From Roseiflexus sp. (GTDB lineage Bacteria > Chloroflexota > Chloroflexia > Chloroflexales > Roseiflexaceae): a DNA stretch of 37,707 nucleotides. Below the pieces are notes generated by a model. It had not been told where the DNA came from and searched no databases. It saw only the letters and a list, made by a program, of their open reading frames with translations. How positions within the stretch are numbered: the first letter of the stretch is position 1; each line of letters starts with the position of its first letter. A program made the translations under genes and the position numbers. Location: contig JAGHYV010000045.1 of assembly GCA_017743475.1 (NCBI GenBank), forward strand, positions 1 to 37,707, in the 5' to 3' direction. Below, piece by piece: positions 25,342 to 37,572 of the stretch.

Positions 25342-25363
25342 CTTTGTGCCATTTGACACAAAG
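25342..25363. promoter_or_regulatory. Rex-like operator (TTGTG-N8-CACAA) over the nuoF promoter
   Basis: CTTTGTG (25342-25348) and CACAAAG (25357-25363) are a perfect 7-bp inverted repeat with an 8-bp spacer. The core TTGTG-N8-CACAA has the same arms and spacing as the published operator of Rex, TTGTGAA-N4-TTCACAA; only the inner AA/TT positions differ (CC and GA). It covers the -35 box. Rex releases DNA when NADH is high, so this placement would induce NADH dehydrogenase when its substrate accumulates. No rex gene is in the window, so the assignment is inference from the site. Confidence 0.55.
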
Positions 25364-25381
25364 CATTCGTAGTGGTAGAGT
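25353..25381 (+). promoter_or_regulatory. Sigma-70-type promoter of the nuo operon
   Basis: TTGACA at 25353-25358 is a perfect -35 and TAGAGT at 25376-25381 is the -10, separated by exactly 17 bp. Transcription would start near 25388, about 60 nt before the nuoF ATG. The rest of the 302-bp region 25146-25447 holds no gene. Confidence 0.7.
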
Positions 25382-25447
25382 AAGTGTAAGACATGCGCCA
25401 TTCCAGGCGTATGGCGGTGTCAGCGCTGGAAAGCGAGTTATCAGTCT

Positions 25448-26749
25448 ATGTCTCCGCTCGCCAAGCATATTGTTCTCCGCGACCTGGACATCAAAGATAT
25501 TGCGGATTTCGAGGTCTATCTGCGCTACGACGGCTATGAGGCGCTGCGCATTGCAGTGACTGAACGCACTCCCGCCGACATTGTCCAGATAGTGAAGGAT
25601 TCGGGACTGCGCGGGCGTGGCGGTGCCGGGTTTCCGACAGGGGTCAAGTGGGGGTTCCTTCCGAAAGGTGTCTATCCGCGCTACCTGCTATGCAACTGCG
25701 ACGAAAGTGAACCAGGTACCTTCAACAACCATCAGATTATTGATCGCAATCCGCATCAGTTGATCGAAGGAATCGCGATCTCCGCTTACGCAATCGAGGC
25801 GCACACTGCATACATCTATATCCGCGGCGAGTTCGCGGCAGCAGCACGGCGACTGGAACGCGCGATTGCGCAGGCGTATGAGCGCGGTTTCCTCGGCAGG
25901 AATATATTCGGCAAAGGGTACGATCTTGACATCTATGTGCATCGTGGCGCAGGTGCGTATATCTGTGGTGAAGAAACGGCGCTCATGGAGTCGCTCGAAG
26001 GAAAGATCGGTCAACCACGCCTGCGCCCACCCTTCCCAGCAGTCGCTGGTCTGTACGGCAAACCAACGATTATCAACAATGTCGAGACGTTGACAAATGT
26101 GCCGATGATCGTCCGCCACGGCGCTGCCTGGTATCGTCAGTTCGGCACCGAAAAAAGCCCTGGTACCAAAGTCTTCTCGATCTCCGGTCACGTGAAGCGT
26201 CCTGGCAATTATGAGGCGCCGCTCGGAATACCGCTGCGCGAATTGATCTTTTCGCCCGATTATTGCCAGGGAATGCGGAGCGACCGCAATGTCAAAATTG
26301 TGGTGCCCGGCGGTGCGTCCGCTGGCTGGCTCACAGCGGATGATCTCGATGTGACGATGGACTATGAAGCGCTGGCAGCAAAGGGGAGCATGCTCGGCTC
26401 TGGCGGCGTGATCGTTCTCGACGAGAGCGTTAGCGCGGTTGAGGTCGCCTATAAGATGGGCGAGTTCTTCAAGCATGAGTCGTGCGGCAAATGTACACCC
26501 TGTCGTGAGGGAACATACTTCCTGGTGAAAGTGCTGCACCGGATCATGCACGGTCATGGGCGCAAGGAAGACATTCCATTACTGCACGATGTTTATAATC
26601 AGATGGCTGGCAATTGCTTCTGTTTGCTCGGTGAAAGCGCTGTCGTGCCGATCCGCAGCGCACTGCGCCTCTTTCCGCACGAGTTCGAACAGGTAATTGC
26701 GCAGGCTGGTAACGGACGCCGTGACATCAGGGTGATGTCAGTTCACTGA
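25448..26749 (+). CDS. nuoF: NADH-quinone oxidoreductase subunit F
   Basis: The 433-residue subunit carries the FMN/NADH site GRGGAGFPTGVKW (56-68) and the acidic NADH-contacting CNCDESEPGTF. The 4Fe-4S cluster N3 ligands are C346-G-K-C349-T-P-C352 plus C392 (GNCFCLLG). It accepts hydride from NADH on FMN and passes electrons into the peripheral arm of complex I at the cytosolic face. It is the first gene of the operon, 60 nt after a strong promoter with a Rex-like operator. NuoE, its usual partner and upstream neighbour, is absent here. After the stop the next operon gene, nuoG, begins only after 276 bp, an unusually wide gap that holds a 75-codon frame. Confidence 0.97.
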   Translation: MSPLAKHIVLRDLDIKDIADFEVYLRYDGYEALRIAVTERTPADIVQIVKDSGLRGRGGAGFPTGVKWGFLPKGVYPRYLLCNCDESEPGTFNNHQIIDRNPHQLIEGIAISAYAIEAHTAYIYIRGEFAAAARRLERAIAQAYERGFLGRNIFGKGYDLDIYVHRGAGAYICGEETALMESLEGKIGQPRLRPPFPAVAGLYGKPTIINNVETLTNVPMIVRHGAAWYRQFGTEKSPGTKVFSISGHVKRPGNYEAPLGIPLRELIFSPDYCQGMRSDRNVKIVVPGGASAGWLTADDLDVTMDYEALAAKGSMLGSGGVIVLDESVSAVEVAYKMGEFFKHESCGKCTPCREGTYFLVKVLHRIMHGHGRKEDIPLLHDVYNQMAGNCFCLLGESAVVPIRSALRLFPHEFEQVIAQAGNGRRDIRVMSVH

Positions 26750-26987: not shown

Positions 26988-27025
26988 TATCCCGCCCGCC
27001 GTAACACGGCGCTAGAGGTGTGCAT

Positions 27026-29782
27026 ATGCCCGATGTAACCCTGGTCATCGATGGACAGACGGTGACTGTGCCAGCCGGAACCAATCTTGTCGATGCGGCC
27101 CGTACGGCTGGCGTCACGATACCGGTTTTCTGTTACCATCCTAAACTCAAGCCGGTCGGCATGTGTCGGATGTGTCTGGTCGAAGTGTGGACGCCAAAGA
27201 TCGATCCGGCGACCCGCCAAGTGGTGATGGGTGAGGATGGTAAGCCGGTTATGGCATTGATGATGGGGAAACTGCAACCTGGTTGCGTAACGCCGGTCAG
27301 TGAGGGCATGGAGGTACGCACGACAACGCCGAAGGTACGTTTTGCGCAGAAGGGGCAACTGGAGTTCTTGCTGACATCGCACCCGCTCGACTGCCCGGTG
27401 TGCGATAAGGGAGGCGAGTGCCCGCTGCAAAACCTGACGATGCAGTTCGGTCCAAGTACATCACGCTTCGACTATGCTGACAAGATCCATTTTGAGAAAC
27501 CTGTCCCTTTGGGCGATCTGATCTATCTCGATCGAGAACGCTGCATTCTCTGCTCGCGGTGTGTGCGCTTTCAGGACGATATCGCTGGCGATCCGGTGCT
27601 TGGTTTCGACAACCGCGGTCGTGCCTGGGAAATTATCTCGAAATCAGATCCGCCGTTCGACTCGAAGTTTTCTGGCAATACGACCGATATCTGTCCGGTC
27701 GGTGCACTGACCACCGCCGACTTCCGTTTCAAGGCACGCGTGTGGGAACTGCGCCCGACCCCCAGCATCTGCCCACACTGTCCGGTCGGGTGCACTATCT
27801 CGCTCGACATGCGCTATGATCGGTTGATGCGGGTAATGCCGCGCGAGAATGAGTATGTTAATGAAATCTGGATCTGTGACAAGGGACGCTTTGGCATGCG
27901 CTTCATCGAAAGTCCAGAGCGTCTGCGGCATCCGCTGATCCGCAAGGGTGATACGCTAACCCAGGCAACGTGGGACGAAGCCATCGCTCTGGTCGCCGAA
28001 AAGTTGCGTGCCATTCGCACCCACGCAGGCGCGACGGCGTTGGGCGGTCTGGCAAGCCCCGACCTGCCGAACGAAGACCTGTACCTGTTCCAGAAGTTGT
28101 TCCGCCAGGTGCTGGGATCGCCAAACATTGATTGCTGCACCGGCGCTCCAGGAGCGCCGGAGATCATTGATCTTGGAGCGACGCTCGGCGTTGGCAAAGG
28201 GACAAATCTGGCGAACCTGGGAACGGGGACAGCAGTGCTGGTGGTTGGCGCCGATCCGGAGGAAGAAGCGCCGCTCTACGTGCTGCGTCTGCGCGGGATT
28301 GTGGCGCGCGGCGGCGATCTGACGGTAATCAACCCGTATCCTACAAAACTGGATCGCACCCCGGCGCGTGTTATCCATCCCCGCGCTGGCACTGAGGCGT
28401 TCGTCGCGCTGGCGCTGATCAAGGTAGTGATCGACGAAGAACTGGTCGCTAATGAGTTTGTGACACGACGAGTTCGGGGTTTCGACGATCTGAAGGCACG
28501 TCTGCGTGAACACAGTGTTGCGTCGCTCTGCGATGTCGCAGAGGTTGCGGAAGATACGGTTCGTGCCGCAGCGCACGCCTTCGCCCGAGCGGAACACGGC
28601 ATCATTGTGTATGGACGGGTAGCGTTGACCATTGGCGCAGATCTGCTCAATGCACTTGCTGACCTGGCGCTGCTGACCGGTCATATTGGCAAGCCAAACA
28701 GTGGTTTCATCCCGCTCATTCCCGGCGCGAATGCGCGTGGTGCGCTTGATATGGGCGTGCGTCCAGGAAGCGGAAAGAAGCGTGGCTTGAGCGCGCGAGA
28801 GATGTGGACAGCAGCGCGCGAAGGACGTTTGCGAGGGATGTTCATCGCGGGTCTGGATCCGGTGCGCGACAATCCGGCAGTTGCATCGGCGCTCGATGCG
28901 CTCGAGTTTCTGGTCGTGCAGGATATTTTCCTCACCGAAACGGCGCAATATGCCAATGTCGTCCTGCCAACCGCCTCAATCGCCGGTCGTGAGGGAACGT
29001 TCACCAACGCTGAACGACGGGTGCAGCGTTTTCGTCAGGCACGTATTCCCGAATACAATACGCCAGCTGGCTGGGATATTGCTCAGCGCATCGCGCGTGC
29101 CCTGATGTCCGGCAATCGCGAAGCGGTCACCTCTACCGATCCGACGGACGGGCGCACTGCACAACGCCCATGTGTGCAAACCGGAACCAGCACCTGGGAC
29201 TACGTGGTTGCCAGCGACGTCGCGGACGAGATTGCGACAACGATACGCGGGTACACTGATACAACGTATGAAAGCCTGGGATTGACGCGCAAGCCGCAGT
29301 GGGGGCGTCAACCGAATGAGGCGATCTTCTACGATGGCACCTCCTACGAAAACATGGAAGGGGTCGGGGTGCAGATCGCGGCTGAGGCCGACAATCCAAA
29401 AGCTGTGTTTACGCTCCAGGCGCGTGTGCCATCGCCGATACCAGAGGATGATGCCCATCCATACATCCTGCTGGCGGTACCGCGCGCCTATGATGGTCGG
29501 GCATGGGCGCGCGACTCGAAACTGCTGCCGCGGATGATCAAGCCGCACCTTATTCTGAGCACAGTAGACGCTGCTGCGCTGGAAGCGACGCCTGGCGCAC
29601 TGGTACGGATCGCCTCTGATGCTGGTCAGGCAGTGCTGCCAGTGCAGATCGACCGTCACCTGCCACGCGGACTTGCGCTGATACCGGATGTCAACGGCGC
29701 ACCGCTTAGTGCCGTGCAAACCAGTCCGTTGACGCGCGTTGCTATCACGCTGCATATCAGTGAATCGGTAGAAATACGATGA
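27026..29782 (+). CDS. nuoG: NADH-quinone oxidoreductase subunit G
   Basis: With ATG at 27026 (AGAGG six to ten bases upstream) the product is 918 residues. It opens with a 2Fe-2S ferredoxin fold carrying cluster N1b (C36, C47, C50, C87). Cluster N5 with a His ligand follows (H119-x3-C123-x2-C126-x5-C132), then N4 (RCILCSRC with a later CPVGA). The off-path cluster N7 is also encoded: ICPHCPVGC and a later ICDKGR, a feature of E. coli and Thermus types but absent from mitochondria. The rest is a molybdopterin-oxidoreductase fold without catalytic use in complex I. It relays electrons from NuoF toward NuoI. An in-frame GTG at 27020 is a poorer start. The stop overlaps nuoH (ATGA). Confidence 0.96.
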   Translation: MPDVTLVIDGQTVTVPAGTNLVDAARTAGVTIPVFCYHPKLKPVGMCRMCLVEVWTPKIDPATRQVVMGEDGKPVMALMMGKLQPGCVTPVSEGMEVRTTTPKVRFAQKGQLEFLLTSHPLDCPVCDKGGECPLQNLTMQFGPSTSRFDYADKIHFEKPVPLGDLIYLDRERCILCSRCVRFQDDIAGDPVLGFDNRGRAWEIISKSDPPFDSKFSGNTTDICPVGALTTADFRFKARVWELRPTPSICPHCPVGCTISLDMRYDRLMRVMPRENEYVNEIWICDKGRFGMRFIESPERLRHPLIRKGDTLTQATWDEAIALVAEKLRAIRTHAGATALGGLASPDLPNEDLYLFQKLFRQVLGSPNIDCCTGAPGAPEIIDLGATLGVGKGTNLANLGTGTAVLVVGADPEEEAPLYVLRLRGIVARGGDLTVINPYPTKLDRTPARVIHPRAGTEAFVALALIKVVIDEELVANEFVTRRVRGFDDLKARLREHSVASLCDVAEVAEDTVRAAAHAFARAEHGIIVYGRVALTIGADLLNALADLALLTGHIGKPNSGFIPLIPGANARGALDMGVRPGSGKKRGLSAREMWTAAREGRLRGMFIAGLDPVRDNPAVASALDALEFLVVQDIFLTETAQYANVVLPTASIAGREGTFTNAERRVQRFRQARIPEYNTPAGWDIAQRIARALMSGNREAVTSTDPTDGRTAQRPCVQTGTSTWDYVVASDVADEIATTIRGYTDTTYESLGLTRKPQWGRQPNEAIFYDGTSYENMEGVGVQIAAEADNPKAVFTLQARVPSPIPEDDAHPYILLAVPRAYDGRAWARDSKLLPRMIKPHLILSTVDAAALEATPGALVRIASDAGQAVLPVQIDRHLPRGLALIPDVNGAPLSAVQTSPLTRVAITLHISESVEIR

Positions 29783-30954
29783 CCTGGATCGATCTCGGCA
29801 TTCTGATCGTCAAGTGCATTGTGCTGTCGCTGGCAGCGACAGCGATTTTCGCCTACTTCACGCTCTTTGAGCGGCGAACCCTCGCGCGCCTGCAAAATCG
29901 TGTCGGACCAAACCGCGCCGGACCGGGTGGCTCCCTGCAACCGATCGCCGACGCAGTGAAGCTCTTTTTCAAGGAAGATGTTACGCCACTGCTGGCAGAT
30001 CGCTGGGTCTACCTGGTTTCTCCCGCGTTTGCGGTTATTCCTGCGATCATCATCTGGGCAACTATTCCGGTCGGGATGTGGCCCGATGGTCAGGGGGGCA
30101 ACTGGTTGCAACTCGCCGAGATCAACGTTGGCGTCCTCTACCTGCTGGCAGTCACTTCGGTCGGCGTGTACGGCATCGCAATTGCAGGATGGGCGTCGAA
30201 CAACAAGTACTCGATGCTCGGTGGCATCCGCGCTTCGGCACAGGTCATTTCCTATGAACTTGCGCTTGGCCTGACCGTTCTCGGCGCGGTTATGCAGGCG
30301 CAAAGTTTCAGTACGGCAGAGATCGTCGAACGGCAAATGCATATGTGGAACATCGTTCCGCAGTTCCTTGGTTTTGTTGTGTTCATCATTGCTGCCACTG
30401 CGGAAGTGGTGCGTGCGCCATTCGACCTGGTCGAAGCTGAGCAGGAACTCGTGGGCGGGTACAACACCGAGTATAGTTCGATGAAGTTCGCGCTGTTCTT
30501 CATGTCGGAATATGTCAAACTGGTGGCGATGAATGCCATTGCAGTCACGCTTTTTCTGGGAGGCTGGCAGTTCCCGGGGTTGCAGGTGCTGACGCAGTTT
30601 ACAACGCAGCAGTATGGGGCTATGATTGGCAACGCTGTGCTTGGATTGACATCGCTCGGCGCCTTCCTGCTCAAAGTGCTGCTGCTGTCATTTGTCTCGG
30701 TCTGGATCCGTGCTACTCTGCCGCGGGTGCGCTACGATCAGTTGATGAACTTGGGCTGGAAGGTGCTGCTGCCGCTTGCGCTGATCAACGTCGCTGTAAC
30801 GGCAGTGGTGAATGTGCTGCTGCCCGACAGCCCAACCATTGCAGCGCTGATTGGTCTGGTTGCCGGTATCGTTATCCTGGCAGTCACCGCAGTCATCGGG
30901 AGACCGGGCAAGGAGAAACGAACGGTCACATTGGTAGAGATCGGCGCCTCATAA
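29779..30954 (+). CDS. nuoH: NADH-quinone oxidoreductase subunit H
   Basis: The 391-residue membrane subunit has eight or more hydrophobic helices and the conserved first-loop phrase [20 protein letters not shown]. The acidic quinone-chamber loop [23 protein letters not shown] is also present, followed by LGGWQFPG. NuoH forms the quinone tunnel entrance and couples quinone reduction to the pumping arm in the cytoplasmic membrane. It is somewhat longer than E. coli NuoH (325), mostly from loops and a C-terminal extra helix with a charged tail. The start overlaps the nuoG stop by four bases. NuoI follows after 73 bp. Confidence 0.96.
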
Positions 30955-31027: not shown

Positions 31028-31525
31028 ATGATCGGCGCACTGTTCAAAGGTCTGGGAACAACGCTCAGGTATCTGTTCCGCAAGCCGGTCACTGTCGAGT
31101 ACCCGGAAGTCAAACGACCGGTGCGCGAACGGTTCCGCGGTCGGCATCAACTGAAGCGATTCGCCAATGGCATGGAGCGCTGCATCGGTTGCTCACTGTG
31201 CGCGGCAGCCTGTCCGGCTGATGCTATTCTGGTTGTGCCAGCGGAGAATGATCCTGCCGCGCCGCATTCGCCGGGTGAACGGTATGCAGAGCGCTACGAG
31301 ATCAATATGCTGCGCTGCATTTTCTGCGGCTACTGCGAAGACGCCTGTCCAACCAACGCGATTGTACTTGAGCATCAGTATGAACTTTCGTTCTACGACC
31401 GCCAGAGTTCTATTCTGACCAAGGATGATCTCCTGGTCCCGCCCGACAAGGGGCACGGCGAGATTCCGCCTATCCTGGATCAATTGAATCGCCGCCCCAG
31501 CCCGCCAGCGCAGATTGACCTGTAA
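31028..31525 (+). CDS. nuoI: NADH-quinone oxidoreductase subunit I
   Basis: The 165-residue subunit has the two expected ferredoxin-type 4Fe-4S motifs. N6a is C52-x2-C55-x2-C58-x3-C62 and N6b is C97-x2-C100-x2-C103-x3-C107, each followed by Pro. The N-terminal amphipathic stretch ([16 protein letters not shown]) contacts the membrane. It passes electrons from NuoG's cluster chain toward the terminal cluster N2 in NuoB, which is not encoded in this window. GAGAGACG precedes the ATG. The neighbouring order H-I-J is standard for bacterial nuo operons. Confidence 0.97.
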
Positions 31526-31538
31526 CAATGAGGCTGCA

Positions 31539-32096
31539 ATGGAACTTGTTATTTTCCTGATCACGGCGGTAGTGGCGATCGCGGGGGCGGTAGCAATGCT
31601 GCTCAGCCCGAATGCGATCCATAGCGCGATCTTTCTGCTGATCAACTTTGTCGCAATCTCAGTGCTCTATGTATTGCTGTACGCCCCATTCCTGTTTGTC
31701 ATCCAGTTGATCGTCTACGCTGGCGCGATCATTGTGCTTTTCCTCTTTGTGGTGATGCTGCTTGGCGCAGAACGGGCTGAAGACACGCGCGAACGGTTCG
31801 CCTGGCAGCGCCCATTGGGAGTGACCCTCGCAACGATTCTGCTGAGTCTGATCGGATATCTTGCGCTGCGCAACCCACTATCCAGGACTGCAGTCGCCGA
31901 CCAGCACTTTGCAGCGCCGGAACGCATCGCCGAAGCGCTGTTCACAACCTACCTGCTCCCCTTCGAGATAACGGCATTTTTGCTGCTCGCAGCAATTGTC
32001 GGCGTCATTGTGCTGCATACGGCGGGGGGCAGGGAACTAAGAACTGAGAACCAAGAACTGAGAACCAAGAACCAAGAACTGAGAACCAAGAACTGA
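31539..32096 (+). CDS. nuoJ: NADH-quinone oxidoreductase subunit J with a repeat-encoded C-terminus
   Basis: Starting at the ATG at 31539 (GAGG five bases upstream) the product is 185 residues with five hydrophobic helices. It has the conserved [19 protein letters not shown] helix, whose glycine kink forms the pi-bulge helix TM3 of NuoJ. NuoJ links the quinone module to the antiporter subunits. The last ~20 residues ([16 protein letters not shown]...) do not match any NuoJ: they are encoded by the 7-bp tandem array at 32040-32144, and the natural stop falls inside it. The family tail before this ends near VIVLHTAGG, so the repeat appears to have replaced or extended the C-terminus. In-frame starts before 31539 add residues unlike NuoJ. 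Confidence 0.93.
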
Positions 32097-32149: not shown

Positions 32150-32452
32150 ATGGTGCCAACGAGTTACTACATTTTACTCAGCGCATTGCTGTTCACCCTG
32201 GGTGTTGCGGGTGTTCTGATCCGGCGCAATGCGTTGGTTCTATTCATGTCAGTCGAGTTGATGCTGAACTCGGCAAACCTGGCTCTGGTGACGTTTGCAA
32301 TGGCACGGCAGGATATCGCCGGGCAGATGGTCGTCTTCTTCGTTATCGTCGTTGCCGCTGCTGAAGTCGCCGTTGGTCTGGCGCTACTGGTGGCGATCTT
32401 CCGAACCAAACAAACAACTGATGTGGATGAGATTCATTCATTGAAAGGCTGA
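32150..32452 (+). CDS. nuoK: NADH-quinone oxidoreductase subunit K
   Basis: At exactly 100 residues with three hydrophobic helices this matches NuoK. The two proton-path glutamates fall at E36 ([11 protein letters not shown]) and E72 ([12 protein letters not shown]), the same positions as in E. coli. NuoK is an MrpC-like link in the membrane arm. The start at 32150 follows the heptamer array directly; the ribosome-binding context is weak (AGAACCGGGATT) apart from the purine-rich repeat itself, so translation may depend on the array or on coupling to nuoJ. A 73-bp gap to nuoL holds nothing recognised. Confidence 0.96.
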
Positions 32453-32525: not shown

Positions 32526-34490
32526 ATGAACTGGATCATCTGGCTGATACCTGCTTTTCCTCTGATTGGCTTTTTGCTCAATGCGCTGGTTGTGCGTCGT
32601 GAGCGCGCAGCTGGCATCCTTGCCTCGGTGATGGTCGGGTTATCGTTCGCGGCAACGATTGCAGCGATGGTCGTGCTCGAAGGCGCGCCATCCGAGGCAA
32701 AACGATTAACCTGGACACTGTGGGAGTGGATCAGGATTGCCGATTTTCGCGTGGCGTTCGGGTTGCTGTTCGACCCGCTTACGGCAGTGATGGCGCTGCT
32801 GATCACCGGCGTCGGCGGGTTGATCCATATCTACTCGATAGGCTACATGCATGGTGATGTTCGTCCGGTACGCTTCTTCGCGTTCATGAACCTGTTCGTC
32901 TTCGCCATGCTGATGCTGGTGATGGCGGATAATCTGTTGCTGTTGTTCCTCGGATGGGAAGGGGTGGGGTTGTGCTCGTTCCTGCTGATCGGGCACTACT
33001 TCGACCGTCGCTCTGTGCCGCCAGGTATCAATCCCTCCGAGGCTGCCGTGAAAGCCTTTGTGGTCAATCGTGTCGGCGATGTAGCGATGCTGGCCGCACT
33101 GTTCGCAATCTTTACCAACTTCGGCACGCTGTCGTTCTACGACAATCCGCAGCTCGGCATTAGCGGCTACCTCGATCAGGCGATTGTCGTCGCTGGCGAA
33201 ATGGTTGACCTTGGCGCGTTTGGACAGTTACCGCTGATAACCGGTATCACGCTGCTCATGCTGGTCGCCGTTACCGGAAAATCGGCGCAATTCCCGCTCT
33301 ATACCTGGTTGCCTGATGCGATGGCCGGTCCAACGCCGGTGTCGGCGCTAATTCATGCGGCGACAATGGTGACGTCTGGCGTGTACCTGATTGTGCGCAA
33401 CCATACTCTGTTCGATCAACCGGCGTCGGCAGCGCCTTGGGTGCTGGTGATCGGCGTGATGACGGCGTTCATCGGCGCGACTGCAGCTGTGGCGCAACTC
33501 GATATCAAGCGGGTGCTGGCGTACTCGACCGTCTCGCAACTCGGGTATATGGTTGCTGCGGTGGGAATGGGCGCGTATGTCGCCGGTATGTACCATCTGC
33601 TGACCCATGGGTTGTTCAAGGCACTGCTCTTCCTGGCTGCGGGTTCGGTCATCCATGGTATTGGCAATTACCAGGATATGCGGCGAATGGGCGGGTTGCG
33701 GAATGCGCTGCCGACGACCTTCCGCCTGTATTTCATCGGCGCACTGGCGTTGAGCGGCATCTTCCCATTCGCAGGGTTCTGGAGCAAGGACGAGATCATC
33801 GCCCACGCCTGGTTTGACGCACGGAGTCCGCTGGCAGCCATTATGCTGATCCTGACCTCGGCAGTCACTGCGTTCTATATGGGGCGTCAGATCGGCATGG
33901 TGTTCTTCGGACGACCGCGCGACCAGGCGATCCATGGGCACGAGAGCGGCGTCGCGATGCGCTGGACCATGGTGACGCTGGCTGTCGGCGCTGTTATCGG
34001 CGGTCTGATCAATCTTCCGGGATTGCACTGGCTGAACAGTTATCTGCGTCCGGTGCTGCAGGAACCGGAAGTGATCTACACGGTCGGGATGGGCATTCTT
34101 GCCACGATCACAACCCTGCTGAGCGCTGGCGCCGGTTACCTGGGCTGGAAAACCTATGCCTGCGATCTGGAGCCGCGCATCCGAGTGGGGAAGGAAGATC
34201 CCCTGTTCCGCTACCTGGGCGACCTGTGGCGCGGCATGGAGATTGGCTGGGGTCTCGACTGGCTCTACCAGCGTGTTTTTGTTCGCCCCTACCGCGCAGC
34301 ATCGGTCTTTCTCAGCGACGTGGTTGATCGTGAAGCGATCGATCAGGTGCTGGTCGATGGCACGGCGCGTGGATTGGTGCGACTGGCACACGGATTGCGC
34401 GCATTGCAAAACGGGTACATTCGCACGTATGCGCTCATGTTTCTGTTCGGCGTGATTCTCGTTGTCGCATTCTTCGCCTTACGCGGTTAG
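32526..34490 (+). CDS. nuoL: NADH-quinone oxidoreductase subunit L
   Basis: The 654-residue antiporter-like subunit has the Mrp-type core with MLLFLGWEGVGLCSFLLIGHYF-like helix and the TGKSAQFPLYTWLPDAMAGPTPVSALIHAATMVTSGVYL region, which carries the lysine and histidine of the proton channel. GAYVAGMYHLLTHGLFKALLFL follows, along with a C-terminal lateral-helix region before the final helix. It is the distal proton pump of complex I. Its length is within the family range (about 600-690). It starts with ACATTCCACG before the ATG, with a weak ribosome-binding site. NuoM begins six bases after its stop. Confidence 0.96.
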   Translation: MNWIIWLIPAFPLIGFLLNALVVRRERAAGILASVMVGLSFAATIAAMVVLEGAPSEAKRLTWTLWEWIRIADFRVAFGLLFDPLTAVMALLITGVGGLIHIYSIGYMHGDVRPVRFFAFMNLFVFAMLMLVMADNLLLLFLGWEGVGLCSFLLIGHYFDRRSVPPGINPSEAAVKAFVVNRVGDVAMLAALFAIFTNFGTLSFYDNPQLGISGYLDQAIVVAGEMVDLGAFGQLPLITGITLLMLVAVTGKSAQFPLYTWLPDAMAGPTPVSALIHAATMVTSGVYLIVRNHTLFDQPASAAPWVLVIGVMTAFIGATAAVAQLDIKRVLAYSTVSQLGYMVAAVGMGAYVAGMYHLLTHGLFKALLFLAAGSVIHGIGNYQDMRRMGGLRNALPTTFRLYFIGALALSGIFPFAGFWSKDEIIAHAWFDARSPLAAIMLILTSAVTAFYMGRQIGMVFFGRPRDQAIHGHESGVAMRWTMVTLAVGAVIGGLINLPGLHWLNSYLRPVLQEPEVIYTVGMGILATITTLLSAGAGYLGWKTYACDLEPRIRVGKEDPLFRYLGDLWRGMEIGWGLDWLYQRVFVRPYRAASVFLSDVVDREAIDQVLVDGTARGLVRLAHGLRALQNGYIRTYALMFLFGVILVVAFFALRG

Positions 34491-34495
34491 GACTT

Positions 34496-36019
34496 ATGAA
34501 CGTTGCACCGCTTCTCTCGTTTATGATCTGGCTGCCAGCGCTGGGTGCGCTGGTGGTGCTGGCATTGCCGCGTGAGCGTGTTGCGGCGCAACGCATTGTG
34601 TCGATGAGCGCTGCGCTGCTGGCGCTTGCCGCCGCGTTGGGGGTCGTCTTCTTCTTTGATCCTGCGCGCGCCGGATTTCAACTGGTCGAAAGCATCGCGT
34701 GGATCCCATCGTGGGGCATTAGTTACACCGTCTCGGTCGACGGCATTAGCCTCTGGCTGGTGGTTTTGACTGCGTTTCTGACGCCGGTTGCGCTGGCGGC
34801 GAGTTGGGGAACGGTTGAACGTCAGGAGCGCACGTTTCACGCGCTGGTTCTGTTGCTGGCAAGCGGGCTGTTCGGCGTCTTTACGGCGCAGGACATGCTG
34901 CTGTTCTACGTGTTCTTCGAGTTCACGCTGGTTCCTACTGCACTGCTGATCGGCATCTGGGGCGGTGCAGAACGTCGTTATGCGGCGATCAAGTTCTTCG
35001 CCTACACATTCACCGGTTCGGTCTTTCTGTTGCTGGGAATTATTGGCCTGTATCTGCTGCACGGTCAGGCGACGGGCGTCTACACCTTCGATATTGCGAC
35101 GATCCTGGCGAGCCTGCAACTCGGTACGTTGCAACTGGACCCGGCTGCTGAACGGCTCATGTTTGGGTTGTTCTTCATCGGCTTCGCGGTCAAAACCCCG
35201 ATCTGGCCCTTCCACACCTGGATGACGACTGCTCATGCCGCAGCGCCGTCGTCGGGTGCGATTGATATCGTTGGGTTGCTGATCAAGATCGGCGCGTATG
35301 GTCTGATCCGCTACACTATCCAACTCTTCCCGGCAACTGCTGCCTGGGCAGCGCCAGCAATCAGCGTGCTGGCAGTGATTGGCATTCTGTACGCTGCGTG
35401 GATTGCCTACCAGCAGACTGATATGAAACGTCTGCTGGCATATGCGTCGGTCAGTCACCTGGGGCTGATCGTGCTCGGCATGTTTGCCCTGAACCCGCAG
35501 GGGATCGCCGGGTCGGTGGCGCATATGGTCAACAGTGCCCTAACAACCGGTGCGCTGTTCCTGGTCGTCGGCATGCTCGTTGCACGACGCGGTTCACGCG
35601 AATTGAAGTCGTATGGCGGGCTGTGGAAATCAACGCCGGTGCTCGGCAGTTTGACATTGATACTGGTGCTCGGCTCGATCGGACTTCCCGGATTGAACGG
35701 CTTTGTCAGCGAATTTGCGGTGCTGCAAGGTGCGTGGCGTTCTCCCGGTCTCGGATGGCGTTATGCGTTGCCTGCGCTCCTGGGAGCGGTGCTGGCAGCG
35801 GTTTATCTGCTGCACATGTACCGGATGGCGTTCCTGGGCGATGCACCACCAGAACTGGCGCAGGCACCTGACGTTCGACCGCGTGAACTGGCGCTGCTGG
35901 TCATTATGGCAACGCCAGTCGTCCTGTTTGGGTTGTACCCCAATCTGCTGTTTGGACCCATGCAGCAGTCGGCGACACAGATTGCGGGGGGAACGTTGCA
36001 GTATCTGGCGAGTCGTTGA
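34496..36019 (+). CDS. nuoM: NADH-quinone oxidoreductase subunit M
   Basis: The 507-residue, roughly 14-helix subunit contains the conserved channel glutamate segment LLFYVFFEFTLVPTALLIG. FFIGFAVKTPIWPFHTWM with its lysine, and TAHAAAPSSGAIDIVGLLIKIGAYGL with the channel lysine of TM8, are also present. It is the middle antiporter-like proton pump. The ATG lies six bases after the nuoL stop, whose TAG forms part of a TAGGA ribosome-binding site, indicating tight coupling. A 56-bp gap precedes nuoN. Confidence 0.96.
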   Translation: MNVAPLLSFMIWLPALGALVVLALPRERVAAQRIVSMSAALLALAAALGVVFFFDPARAGFQLVESIAWIPSWGISYTVSVDGISLWLVVLTAFLTPVALAASWGTVERQERTFHALVLLLASGLFGVFTAQDMLLFYVFFEFTLVPTALLIGIWGGAERRYAAIKFFAYTFTGSVFLLLGIIGLYLLHGQATGVYTFDIATILASLQLGTLQLDPAAERLMFGLFFIGFAVKTPIWPFHTWMTTAHAAAPSSGAIDIVGLLIKIGAYGLIRYTIQLFPATAAWAAPAISVLAVIGILYAAWIAYQQTDMKRLLAYASVSHLGLIVLGMFALNPQGIAGSVAHMVNSALTTGALFLVVGMLVARRGSRELKSYGGLWKSTPVLGSLTLILVLGSIGLPGLNGFVSEFAVLQGAWRSPGLGWRYALPALLGAVLAAVYLLHMYRMAFLGDAPPELAQAPDVRPRELALLVIMATPVVLFGLYPNLLFGPMQQSATQIAGGTLQYLASR

Positions 36020-36075
36020 ACGGCAGCCCTGAATCTGCACAGGGCTGAACGTTCGATGTGGAATACGACACACCA

Positions 36076-37572
36076 ATGACAGAGATCGTTATTCCGCCAA
36101 TTGACTGGCGCGTGGCAACGCAACTTAGCATTGTCTTCGGTTGGGCATCGGTACTGCTGATTGTTGCCCTGTTCATACCGCGTTCGCGTACACGGATCGT
36201 CGGGTATCTGGCGATTGTCGGGACACTTGTCGCAGCTGGTGCTGGCATCCCGCTATGGGGCGTCAATGCTGAGACATTCAGTGGCATGCTGCGCCTGGAT
36301 GCGTACAGTCTGACGTTGAACTGGCTCTTTTTGTCCGCTGCGGCAATCACGATCGTGGTATCGCTCGACTACTTGCCGCGACAGGGGATCGAGCGAAGTG
36401 AGTACTACATTCTGGTGCTGTTCGCAACCGGCAGCATGATGCTCCTGGCGCAGGGGACAGACCTGATTATCCTGTTCCTGGGGCTGGAAATGCTGTCGAT
36501 TGTGCTGTATGTGCTGACTGGCTTCGCATACCCGCGCAATGCGTCGGAAGAAGCGGGCATGAAATACCTGTTGATCGGCGCGTTTGCCGGCGGCTTTGTC
36601 GTTTTCGGCATTGCGTTGCTGTACGGCGCAACCGGCAGCATGAATCTGCGGGTCATCGGCGAAACGCTCACACGCCAGACGATGACGCTCGAAGAGCGAA
36701 CCTACATGCTGGCAGGATCGGCGCTCGTTCTCGTTGGTTTTGGCTATAAGGTTGCGATGGCGCCATTCCATATGTGGGCGCCGGATGTGTACGAAGGCGC
36801 GCCGACTCCAATTGCCGGGCTGCTTTCGGTCGGCAGCAAGGCAGCCGGATTTGCAGCGCTGCTGCGGTTCCTGGTCGAGGCGCTGGCAGGAGAATGGCAG
36901 ATCTGGGCGCCGGTGCTGGCGGCGCTGGCGATTGCGACGCTGGCAGTAGGGAACATCGGAGCGCTGACACAGCGCAATGTCAAGCGCATGCTGGCGTATT
37001 CGAGCATTGGGCACGCTGGCTACATCCTGTTTGGCGTGATAGCTGCTGGCGCACCGGGGGGTATTGCAGGTCAGCGCGGCATTGAAGGAGTGCTGTTGTA
37101 CCTGATGGCATACACCTTCACGAACCTTGGCGCATTTGGCGTTCTGATTGCGCTCGAACACCGGGGAGAAGCCGCGTGGGATATGAGCGACCTGGCAGGG
37201 TTGTGGAACCGTCGCCCCTGGCTGGCGGTCGCAATGGCGGTCTGTATGCTCTCGCTGGCTGGCGTTCCGCCGACCGGCGGATTCTGGGGGAAGTTCTACG
37301 TGTTCACCGCTGCGTGGCTGGCAGGCATCGGCTGGATTACCGTCATTGGCGTCGTTATTGCCGCCATTGCTGCATTCTACTATCTCCGTATCGTGGCGCA
37401 GATGTTTATGGCTGAACCGGTGCGCGACACTCCCCCGCCGATGGATCATGCCTTGCGCGCAGGGCTGGTTCTGGCAACCGCAGGCGTGCTGCTGCTGGGA
37501 TTCCTGCCGACTCCGGCCATTGATCTGGTACAGCGCGTGACGCTTGCTGCCGCGGGAAGCGTTCAACCGTAA
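36076..37572 (+). CDS. nuoN: NADH-quinone oxidoreductase subunit N
   Basis: The 498-residue subunit has about 14 hydrophobic helices. The family segment LFLGLEMLSIVLYVLTGFAYPRNASEEAGMKYLLIGAF contains the channel Glu and Lys. MAPFHMWAPDVYEGAPTPIAGLLSVGSKAAGFAAL and NVKRMLAYSSIGHAGYILFG carry the further lysines. It is the proximal antiporter-like pump in the membrane arm. I use the ATG at 36076; an in-frame GTG at 36058 adds six residues without support. It is the last recognised nuo gene here. Confidence 0.96.
   Translation: MTEIVIPPIDWRVATQLSIVFGWASVLLIVALFIPRSRTRIVGYLAIVGTLVAAGAGIPLWGVNAETFSGMLRLDAYSLTLNWLFLSAAAITIVVSLDYLPRQGIERSEYYILVLFATGSMMLLAQGTDLIILFLGLEMLSIVLYVLTGFAYPRNASEEAGMKYLLIGAFAGGFVVFGIALLYGATGSMNLRVIGETLTRQTMTLEERTYMLAGSALVLVGFGYKVAMAPFHMWAPDVYEGAPTPIAGLLSVGSKAAGFAALLRFLVEALAGEWQIWAPVLAALAIATLAVGNIGALTQRNVKRMLAYSSIGHAGYILFGVIAAGAPGGIAGQRGIEGVLLYLMAYTFTNLGAFGVLIALEHRGEAAWDMSDLAGLWNRRPWLAVAMAVCMLSLAGVPPTGGFWGKFYVFTAAWLAGIGWITVIGVVIAAIAAFYYLRIVAQMFMAEPVRDTPPPMDHALRAGLVLATAGVLLLGFLPTPAIDLVQRVTLAAAGSVQP

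Follow-up and report, generated by a model that had tools for sequence, protein, structure and literature searches.

The question raised by this locus is which protein, if any, acts on a palindrome that lies across the promoter of nuoF in Roseiflexus sp. and what that protein would respond to. The initial annotation took the palindrome for an operator of Rex, a sensor of NADH/NAD+. The relevant features of the window, by which we mean the whole 37,707-nucleotide stretch of DNA that was analysed, are as follows (genes with NCBIfam models unless stated otherwise).

25342..25363, no strand: operator palindrome CTTTGTG-N8-CACAAAG, a predicted Rex site (from the sequence; conserved in 23 family genomes)
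25353..25358, + strand: -35 hexamer TTGACA, lying within the operator's right half (sequence and promoter search)
25373..25381, + strand: extended -10, TGG followed by TAGAGT (promoter search for the hexamer)
25448..26749, + strand: nuoF, first gene of the operon predicted to be controlled (TIGR01959, above cut-off)
27020..29782, + strand: nuoG (TIGR01973, above cut-off)
29779..30954, + strand: nuoH (NF004741, above cut-off)
31028..31525, + strand: nuoI (NF004537, above cut-off)
31515..32096, + strand: nuoJ (best NCBIfam matches all to NuoJ, below their cut-offs)
32150..32452, + strand: nuoK (NF004320, above cut-off)
32526..34490, + strand: nuoL (TIGR01974, above cut-off)
34496..36019, + strand: nuoM (TIGR01972, above cut-off)
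36058..37572, + strand: probable nuoN (open reading frame; identity from position and length alone)

At 25342-25363 two perfect 7-bp arms, CTTTGTG and CACAAAG, flank the 8-bp spacer CCATTTGA, giving the full string CTTTGTGCCATTTGACACAAAG and, at 25344-25361, an exact TTGTG-N8-CACAA core. As had been annotated, this inverted repeat sits on the -35 of a TTGACA-17-TAGAGT promoter. The -10 hexamer (25376-25381) has a TG ahead of it and the two hexamers match the consensus at 10 of 12 bases; two sites this good were found, one of them on the other strand, against 0.4 expected from shuffles of the region. The promoter does lie ahead of nuoF, though the distance had been given as 60 nt and is 66 nt from the -10 to the ATG at 25448. 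We infer a transcription start near 25388, with the operator then spanning roughly -46 to -25. Its overlap with the -35 is a placement fit for repression, one of the properties looked for in a Rex operator.

Taken alone the repeat is not rare, with six perfect 7-bp inverted repeats with an 8-bp gap in the window where 3.7 would be expected. Of the exact TTGTG-N8-CACAA core the window has a single copy where 0.06 would be expected, a count of one being reached in 5 of 100 shuffles. Scanning the whole genome (4.97 Mb) gave nine exact cores, compared with three for a reversed control, and every one of the six genomes in the genus showed an excess (8-11 cores per genome against 0-3). Cores with one mismatch, of which there were 111 against 84 in the control, are mostly noise.

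A chance origin of the nuoF palindrome is ruled out by its conservation. When the nuoF upstream regions of relatives are aligned, arms and promoter are kept in all 23 genomes of the family; counting by eye, the operator is exact in 13, has one mismatch in nine and two in one. The left-arm columns are 0.87-1.00 identical, whereas the 38 columns upstream average only 0.41, within upstream sequence that is ~41-44% conserved (one row, L041, was mis-anchored in this computation; by eye it also carries TTTGTGCGGTTTGACACAAA). Both the outer T of TTGTG and the inner C that follows this motif are almost invariant. We regard the conservation of the arms amid poorly conserved upstream DNA as the decisive evidence that the site is not due to chance, and the alignment argues that the palindrome is a real, conserved element resembling an operator. 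It might still be supposed that there is no regulator, and that a conserved promoter simply has a fortuitously palindromic -35 region. The right arm is largely TTGACAC, which the promoter retains even where the left arm has been lost; the left arm, however, lies upstream of the -35 and outside the promoter hexamers, and is as strongly conserved as the -35 itself. This explanation is therefore very improbable. A nuoF promoter of the Roseiflexaceae type was also met on three contigs classified as Singulisphaera, Thermoflexus and Rhodobacteraceae (L200, L207 and L226, the first two with nuoF), which are probably mislabelled or misbinned.

Complex I in this family is split into nuoABCDE and nuoF-N, with an operator at each part; in two other families (L242, L243) it forms one cluster with one operator, upstream of nuoA. 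The nuoABCDE operon (L004, L093; nuoA and nuoB assigned by NCBIfam, nuoC to nuoE by position and sequence) has TTGTGCATCTTGACACAA on its -35, and a heme-O-synthase (ctaB-type) gene whose N-terminus gives a weak CtaA-like match (L007, L094) has TTGTGAAGTTTGACACAA on its own. Every one of the six Roseiflexus genomes contains the pattern TTGTG-N4-TTGACACAA exactly three times, at nuoF, nuoA and ctaB. The same search over 60 genomes of the order gave 34 matches, compared with three in the reversed control, and all those for which the genes were checked belong to nuoA, nuoF or ctaB, save one gene in two sister genomes. In two genomes of the genus g8 (L264, L270) a nuo-type operator-promoter, TTGTGACATTTGACACAA, is found upstream of a gene for a small His-rich membrane protein, followed in L264 by an apparent metal-binding lipoprotein gene.

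The initial annotation held that loss of the arms in relatives that keep the promoter would speak against an operator. This is seen in none of the 23 genomes at nuoF, but it is seen at nuoA in two genera: g3 and part of the g8 genomes have lost the nuoA left arm, and in other g8 genomes it is shifted to a 7-bp gap, while the promoter at nuoA and the operator at nuoF are both retained. Six genomes have no nuoA left arm at all and in five of these the outer right arm has decayed, reading CACC in four from g8 and CACAC in one from g3; a further g3 genome keeps CACAA. Such joint decay suggests that the arms are retained as a pair, and would not be expected of a promoter that is palindromic by accident. 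A second complex I cluster has a weak site, TTGTTTGCGATTTCACGA, upstream of nuoA2, which is conserved in the genus (L273-L277). In L238 it is ~90 bp before nuoA2 (6961, - strand), and its right half resembles the ndh operator; the same regulator might have a weaker site here. No such site was found within 500 bp upstream of nuoF2 of that cluster.

A search of the genome for a Rex homologue identified one bona fide rex gene (L001), which passes several Rex models (NF003995, E=1e-88, above cut-off). The encoded protein matches solved Rex structures, is 40% identical to T. thermophilus Rex and conserves the glycine motif together with the Ala and Tyr residues that in Rex contact NAD+ (PMC8063818). 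Among 40 genomes of the order that were searched rex was found in 38, the two misses being incomplete genomes; with the gene near-universal, its presence or absence is uninformative as a test of the link to the operator.

Related sites are found at the promoters of rex and of an NDH-2 gene (PF22366, above cut-off). In most members of the family, and likewise in f4, T[TA]GTGC-TACACT-TCACA (T[TA]GTGCTACACTTCACA) or a similar sequence lies on the -10 of rex, though it is absent in g8 amongst the rex upstream regions compared; autoregulation of rex is probable from these sequences. At the NDH-2 gene TTGTGAATGATTTCACGA is positioned just downstream of the -10 and is predicted to be a near-canonical Rex operator, with related forms in several other genera. 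On a matrix built from 11 Rex-bound sites of Streptomyces avermitilis, TTGTGAATGATTTCACGA has the top score among 184,008 positions, while the nuoF site is low, with 85 places in 184 kb equal or better. As the ndh site stands out and the nuoF site does not, this matrix alone neither proves nor excludes Rex. The sites lie on the -35 at nuoF, nuoA and ctaB, on the -10 at rex and after the -10 at ndh, and the 8-bp spacing is constant over all five. A position that varies with a spacing that is fixed points to a site for a protein rather than to a promoter element, and counts further against a -35 region without a regulator.

Besides nuoF, then, related sites are present at nuoA, ctaB, ndh and rex, as looked for in a Rex regulon, and Rex classically controls NADH dehydrogenases, heme synthesis and its own gene (PMC5355995, PMC8063818). 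Given the single bona fide rex and the related sites at the rex and NDH-2 promoters, Rex is the best candidate, and from the sequences we predict that it is probably the regulator that binds the nuoF palindrome. The set of nuoF, nuoA, ctaB, ndh and rex is very likely a redox regulon. The original assignment to Rex thus gains from the rex gene, the related sites and the precedent in Streptomyces; it is weakened by the inner bases of the site and by the presence of CRP-family proteins.

The site had been credited with the arms and spacing of the Rex operator. The arms and the 8-bp spacing agree with this, the inner bases of the Rex consensus TTGTGAANNNNTTCACAA do not: the nuoF site matches at 10 of 14 positions, comprising all of the arm bases and none of the four inner bases, which are CC and GA as against AA and TT. 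The inner-base agreement is 0/4 at nuoF, 1/4 at nuoA, 2/4 at ctaB and 4/4 at ndh. Rex-bound sites in Streptomyces differ from the consensus at up to three positions (PMC5355995). With the inner bases unmatched we have lowered the claim that nuoF has a textbook Rex operator. The mismatch on the right side, and the low score of that side, can be put down to the overlapping TTGACA, which fixes the right half. The inner C on the left is not predicted by the canonical motif, but TTGTGC is also present in the Roseiflexus rex site and in the footprinted rex operator of S. avermitilis, where Rex binds TTGTGC- and CACGA-type arms (PMC5355995).

The nuoF, nuoA and ctaB sites do form a tight class of their own, low on the Rex matrix, and could be imagined to serve an undescribed dimeric regulator of complex I and heme-a/o assembly that recognises TTGTG-N4-TTGACACAA, leaving only ndh and rex to Rex. 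We consider this unlikely, as the TTGACA overlap explains the low score of the right half, the left half-sites are common to rex (TTGTGC) and ndh (TTGTGAA), and the ctaB site of genus g8 keeps TTGTG-N8-CACAA without TTGACA. If it were true, a regulator other than Rex would link heme-O synthesis to the two parts of complex I throughout the order, and there would be two parallel circuits for NADH oxidation.

A different family of proteins must also be weighed. CRP sites, TGTGA-N6-TCACA, have TGTG-N8-CACA in common with the nuoF site, and the genome encodes four CRP-family proteins with strong HTH_Crp_2 matches, two of which have RETV-type recognition helices; one of the CRP-family genes has TTGTGACACATTGCACAT at its own promoter. 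A CRP/FNR-family regulator sitting on the -35 could act either by repression or by class II activation. That such a protein reads the nuoF site seems rather unlikely, though, because the site is TGTGC-N6-ACACA, with an inner C on one side and, from the -35, a T on the other, whereas a CRP site calls for A at both positions, and because the outer T of TTGTG, which is nearly invariant, is of low weight for CRP. The same arms are found at the rex and NDH-2 promoters, the latter with its near-canonical Rex site, which again favours Rex.

Several other palindromes were met. The TTGTGACACATTGCACAT site of the CRP-family gene (L245:3600-3617) directly follows a -10-like box, perhaps reflecting autoregulation, and the start of a gene for GTP-dependent PEP carboxykinase has the palindrome TTGTGACATATATCACGA (L101:4757-4774), which looks equally CRP-like and Rex-like. 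Two palindromes 57 bp apart lie upstream of a PLP-dependent aminotransferase gene (L092:5342-5416) and one lies between genes for a response regulator and a molybdopterin oxidoreductase (L092:7571-7588); each of the six genomes in the genus has core sites at both places. A PCu(A)C copper chaperone gene is preceded by TTGTGGTATAATGCACAA (L097:7275-7292), which is conserved in five of six Roseiflexus genomes and has a -10-like TATAAT inside it. The exact sites at the aminotransferase, response regulator and copper chaperone genes, and those inside open frames, were left out of the evidence.

With Rex as the preferred regulator, we infer binding, repression and relief by NADH as follows. By analogy with S. 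avermitilis, the palindrome would be recognised by a dimeric repressor, most likely Rex. As long as NAD+ is abundant, this repressor would lie across the nuoF -35 and keep RNA polymerase off; as NADH builds up it would be released and nuoF-nuoN could be transcribed. The same control would operate at nuoABCDE, at the heme-O-synthase gene (and hence oxidase assembly), at NDH-2 and at rex, such that high NADH would lead to a greater capacity to oxidise it. Having the same kind of operator on both complex I operons would match the supply of the subunits of one enzyme.

The initial annotation went further in proposing that light would directly control NADH oxidation. The host is a phototroph: a single open frame of 654 codons in its genome carries both L- and M-type reaction-centre domains. 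The operator, on the other hand, is not specific to phototrophs: four relatives (G024, G030, G033 and G036) have an exact nuoA operator and no detectable reaction-centre genes, so that the control is not tied to phototrophy. In f3 genomes the nuoA operator takes a form with one or two mismatches. Such control would follow the general redox state rather than light specifically. In mats of Chloroflexus aggregans both sets of complex I genes show a daytime peak (PMC8004040), which neither proves nor excludes a role for Rex.

For filamentous anoxygenic phototrophs, the sites described here amount to an ordered list of targets at which regulation of respiration by NADH/NAD+ can be tested. Their graded match to the Rex consensus within one genome (ndh, then ctaB, nuoA and nuoF) is suited to tests of whether overlap with the -35 tunes affinity. 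A search of the literature found no paper linking Rex with Roseiflexus or Chloroflexus. A comparative prediction of Rex sites by Ravcheev et al in the J Bacteriol of 2012 reportedly used the consensus TTGTGAANNNNTTCACAA and covered several phyla including Chloroflexi, and the nuo sites described here could be among its predictions. What is seen here is a known kind of control extended to a new lineage; the kind itself is not new.

The role of Rex at nuo genes in actinobacteria, cited in the initial annotation, has a precedent in Streptomyces: in S. avermitilis the footprint of Rex at nuoA1 runs from -42 to -16 and includes the -35 (PMC5355995). As in the nuoA1-N1 operon of that organism, an 18-bp palindrome of the TTGTG-N8-CACA type lies over a complex I -35 in Roseiflexus, and rex, heme synthesis and an ndh gene would belong to the same regulated set, under a repressor whose NADH mechanism is known. 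The two systems differ in that nuo in S. avermitilis is one operon with inner bases near the canonical (TTGTGACCTGCTTCACAT), while Roseiflexus has deviating inner bases, a right half that incorporates the -35 TTGACA, and a separate operator for each of its two complex I operons. The arrangement also resembles the Rex-ndh loop of B. subtilis (Gyan et al, 2006, cited in PMC8063818), in that a Rex-type operator lies by the ndh promoter; in that cited account the target studied is Ndh, to which Roseiflexus would add the sites at complex I and heme-O-synthase.
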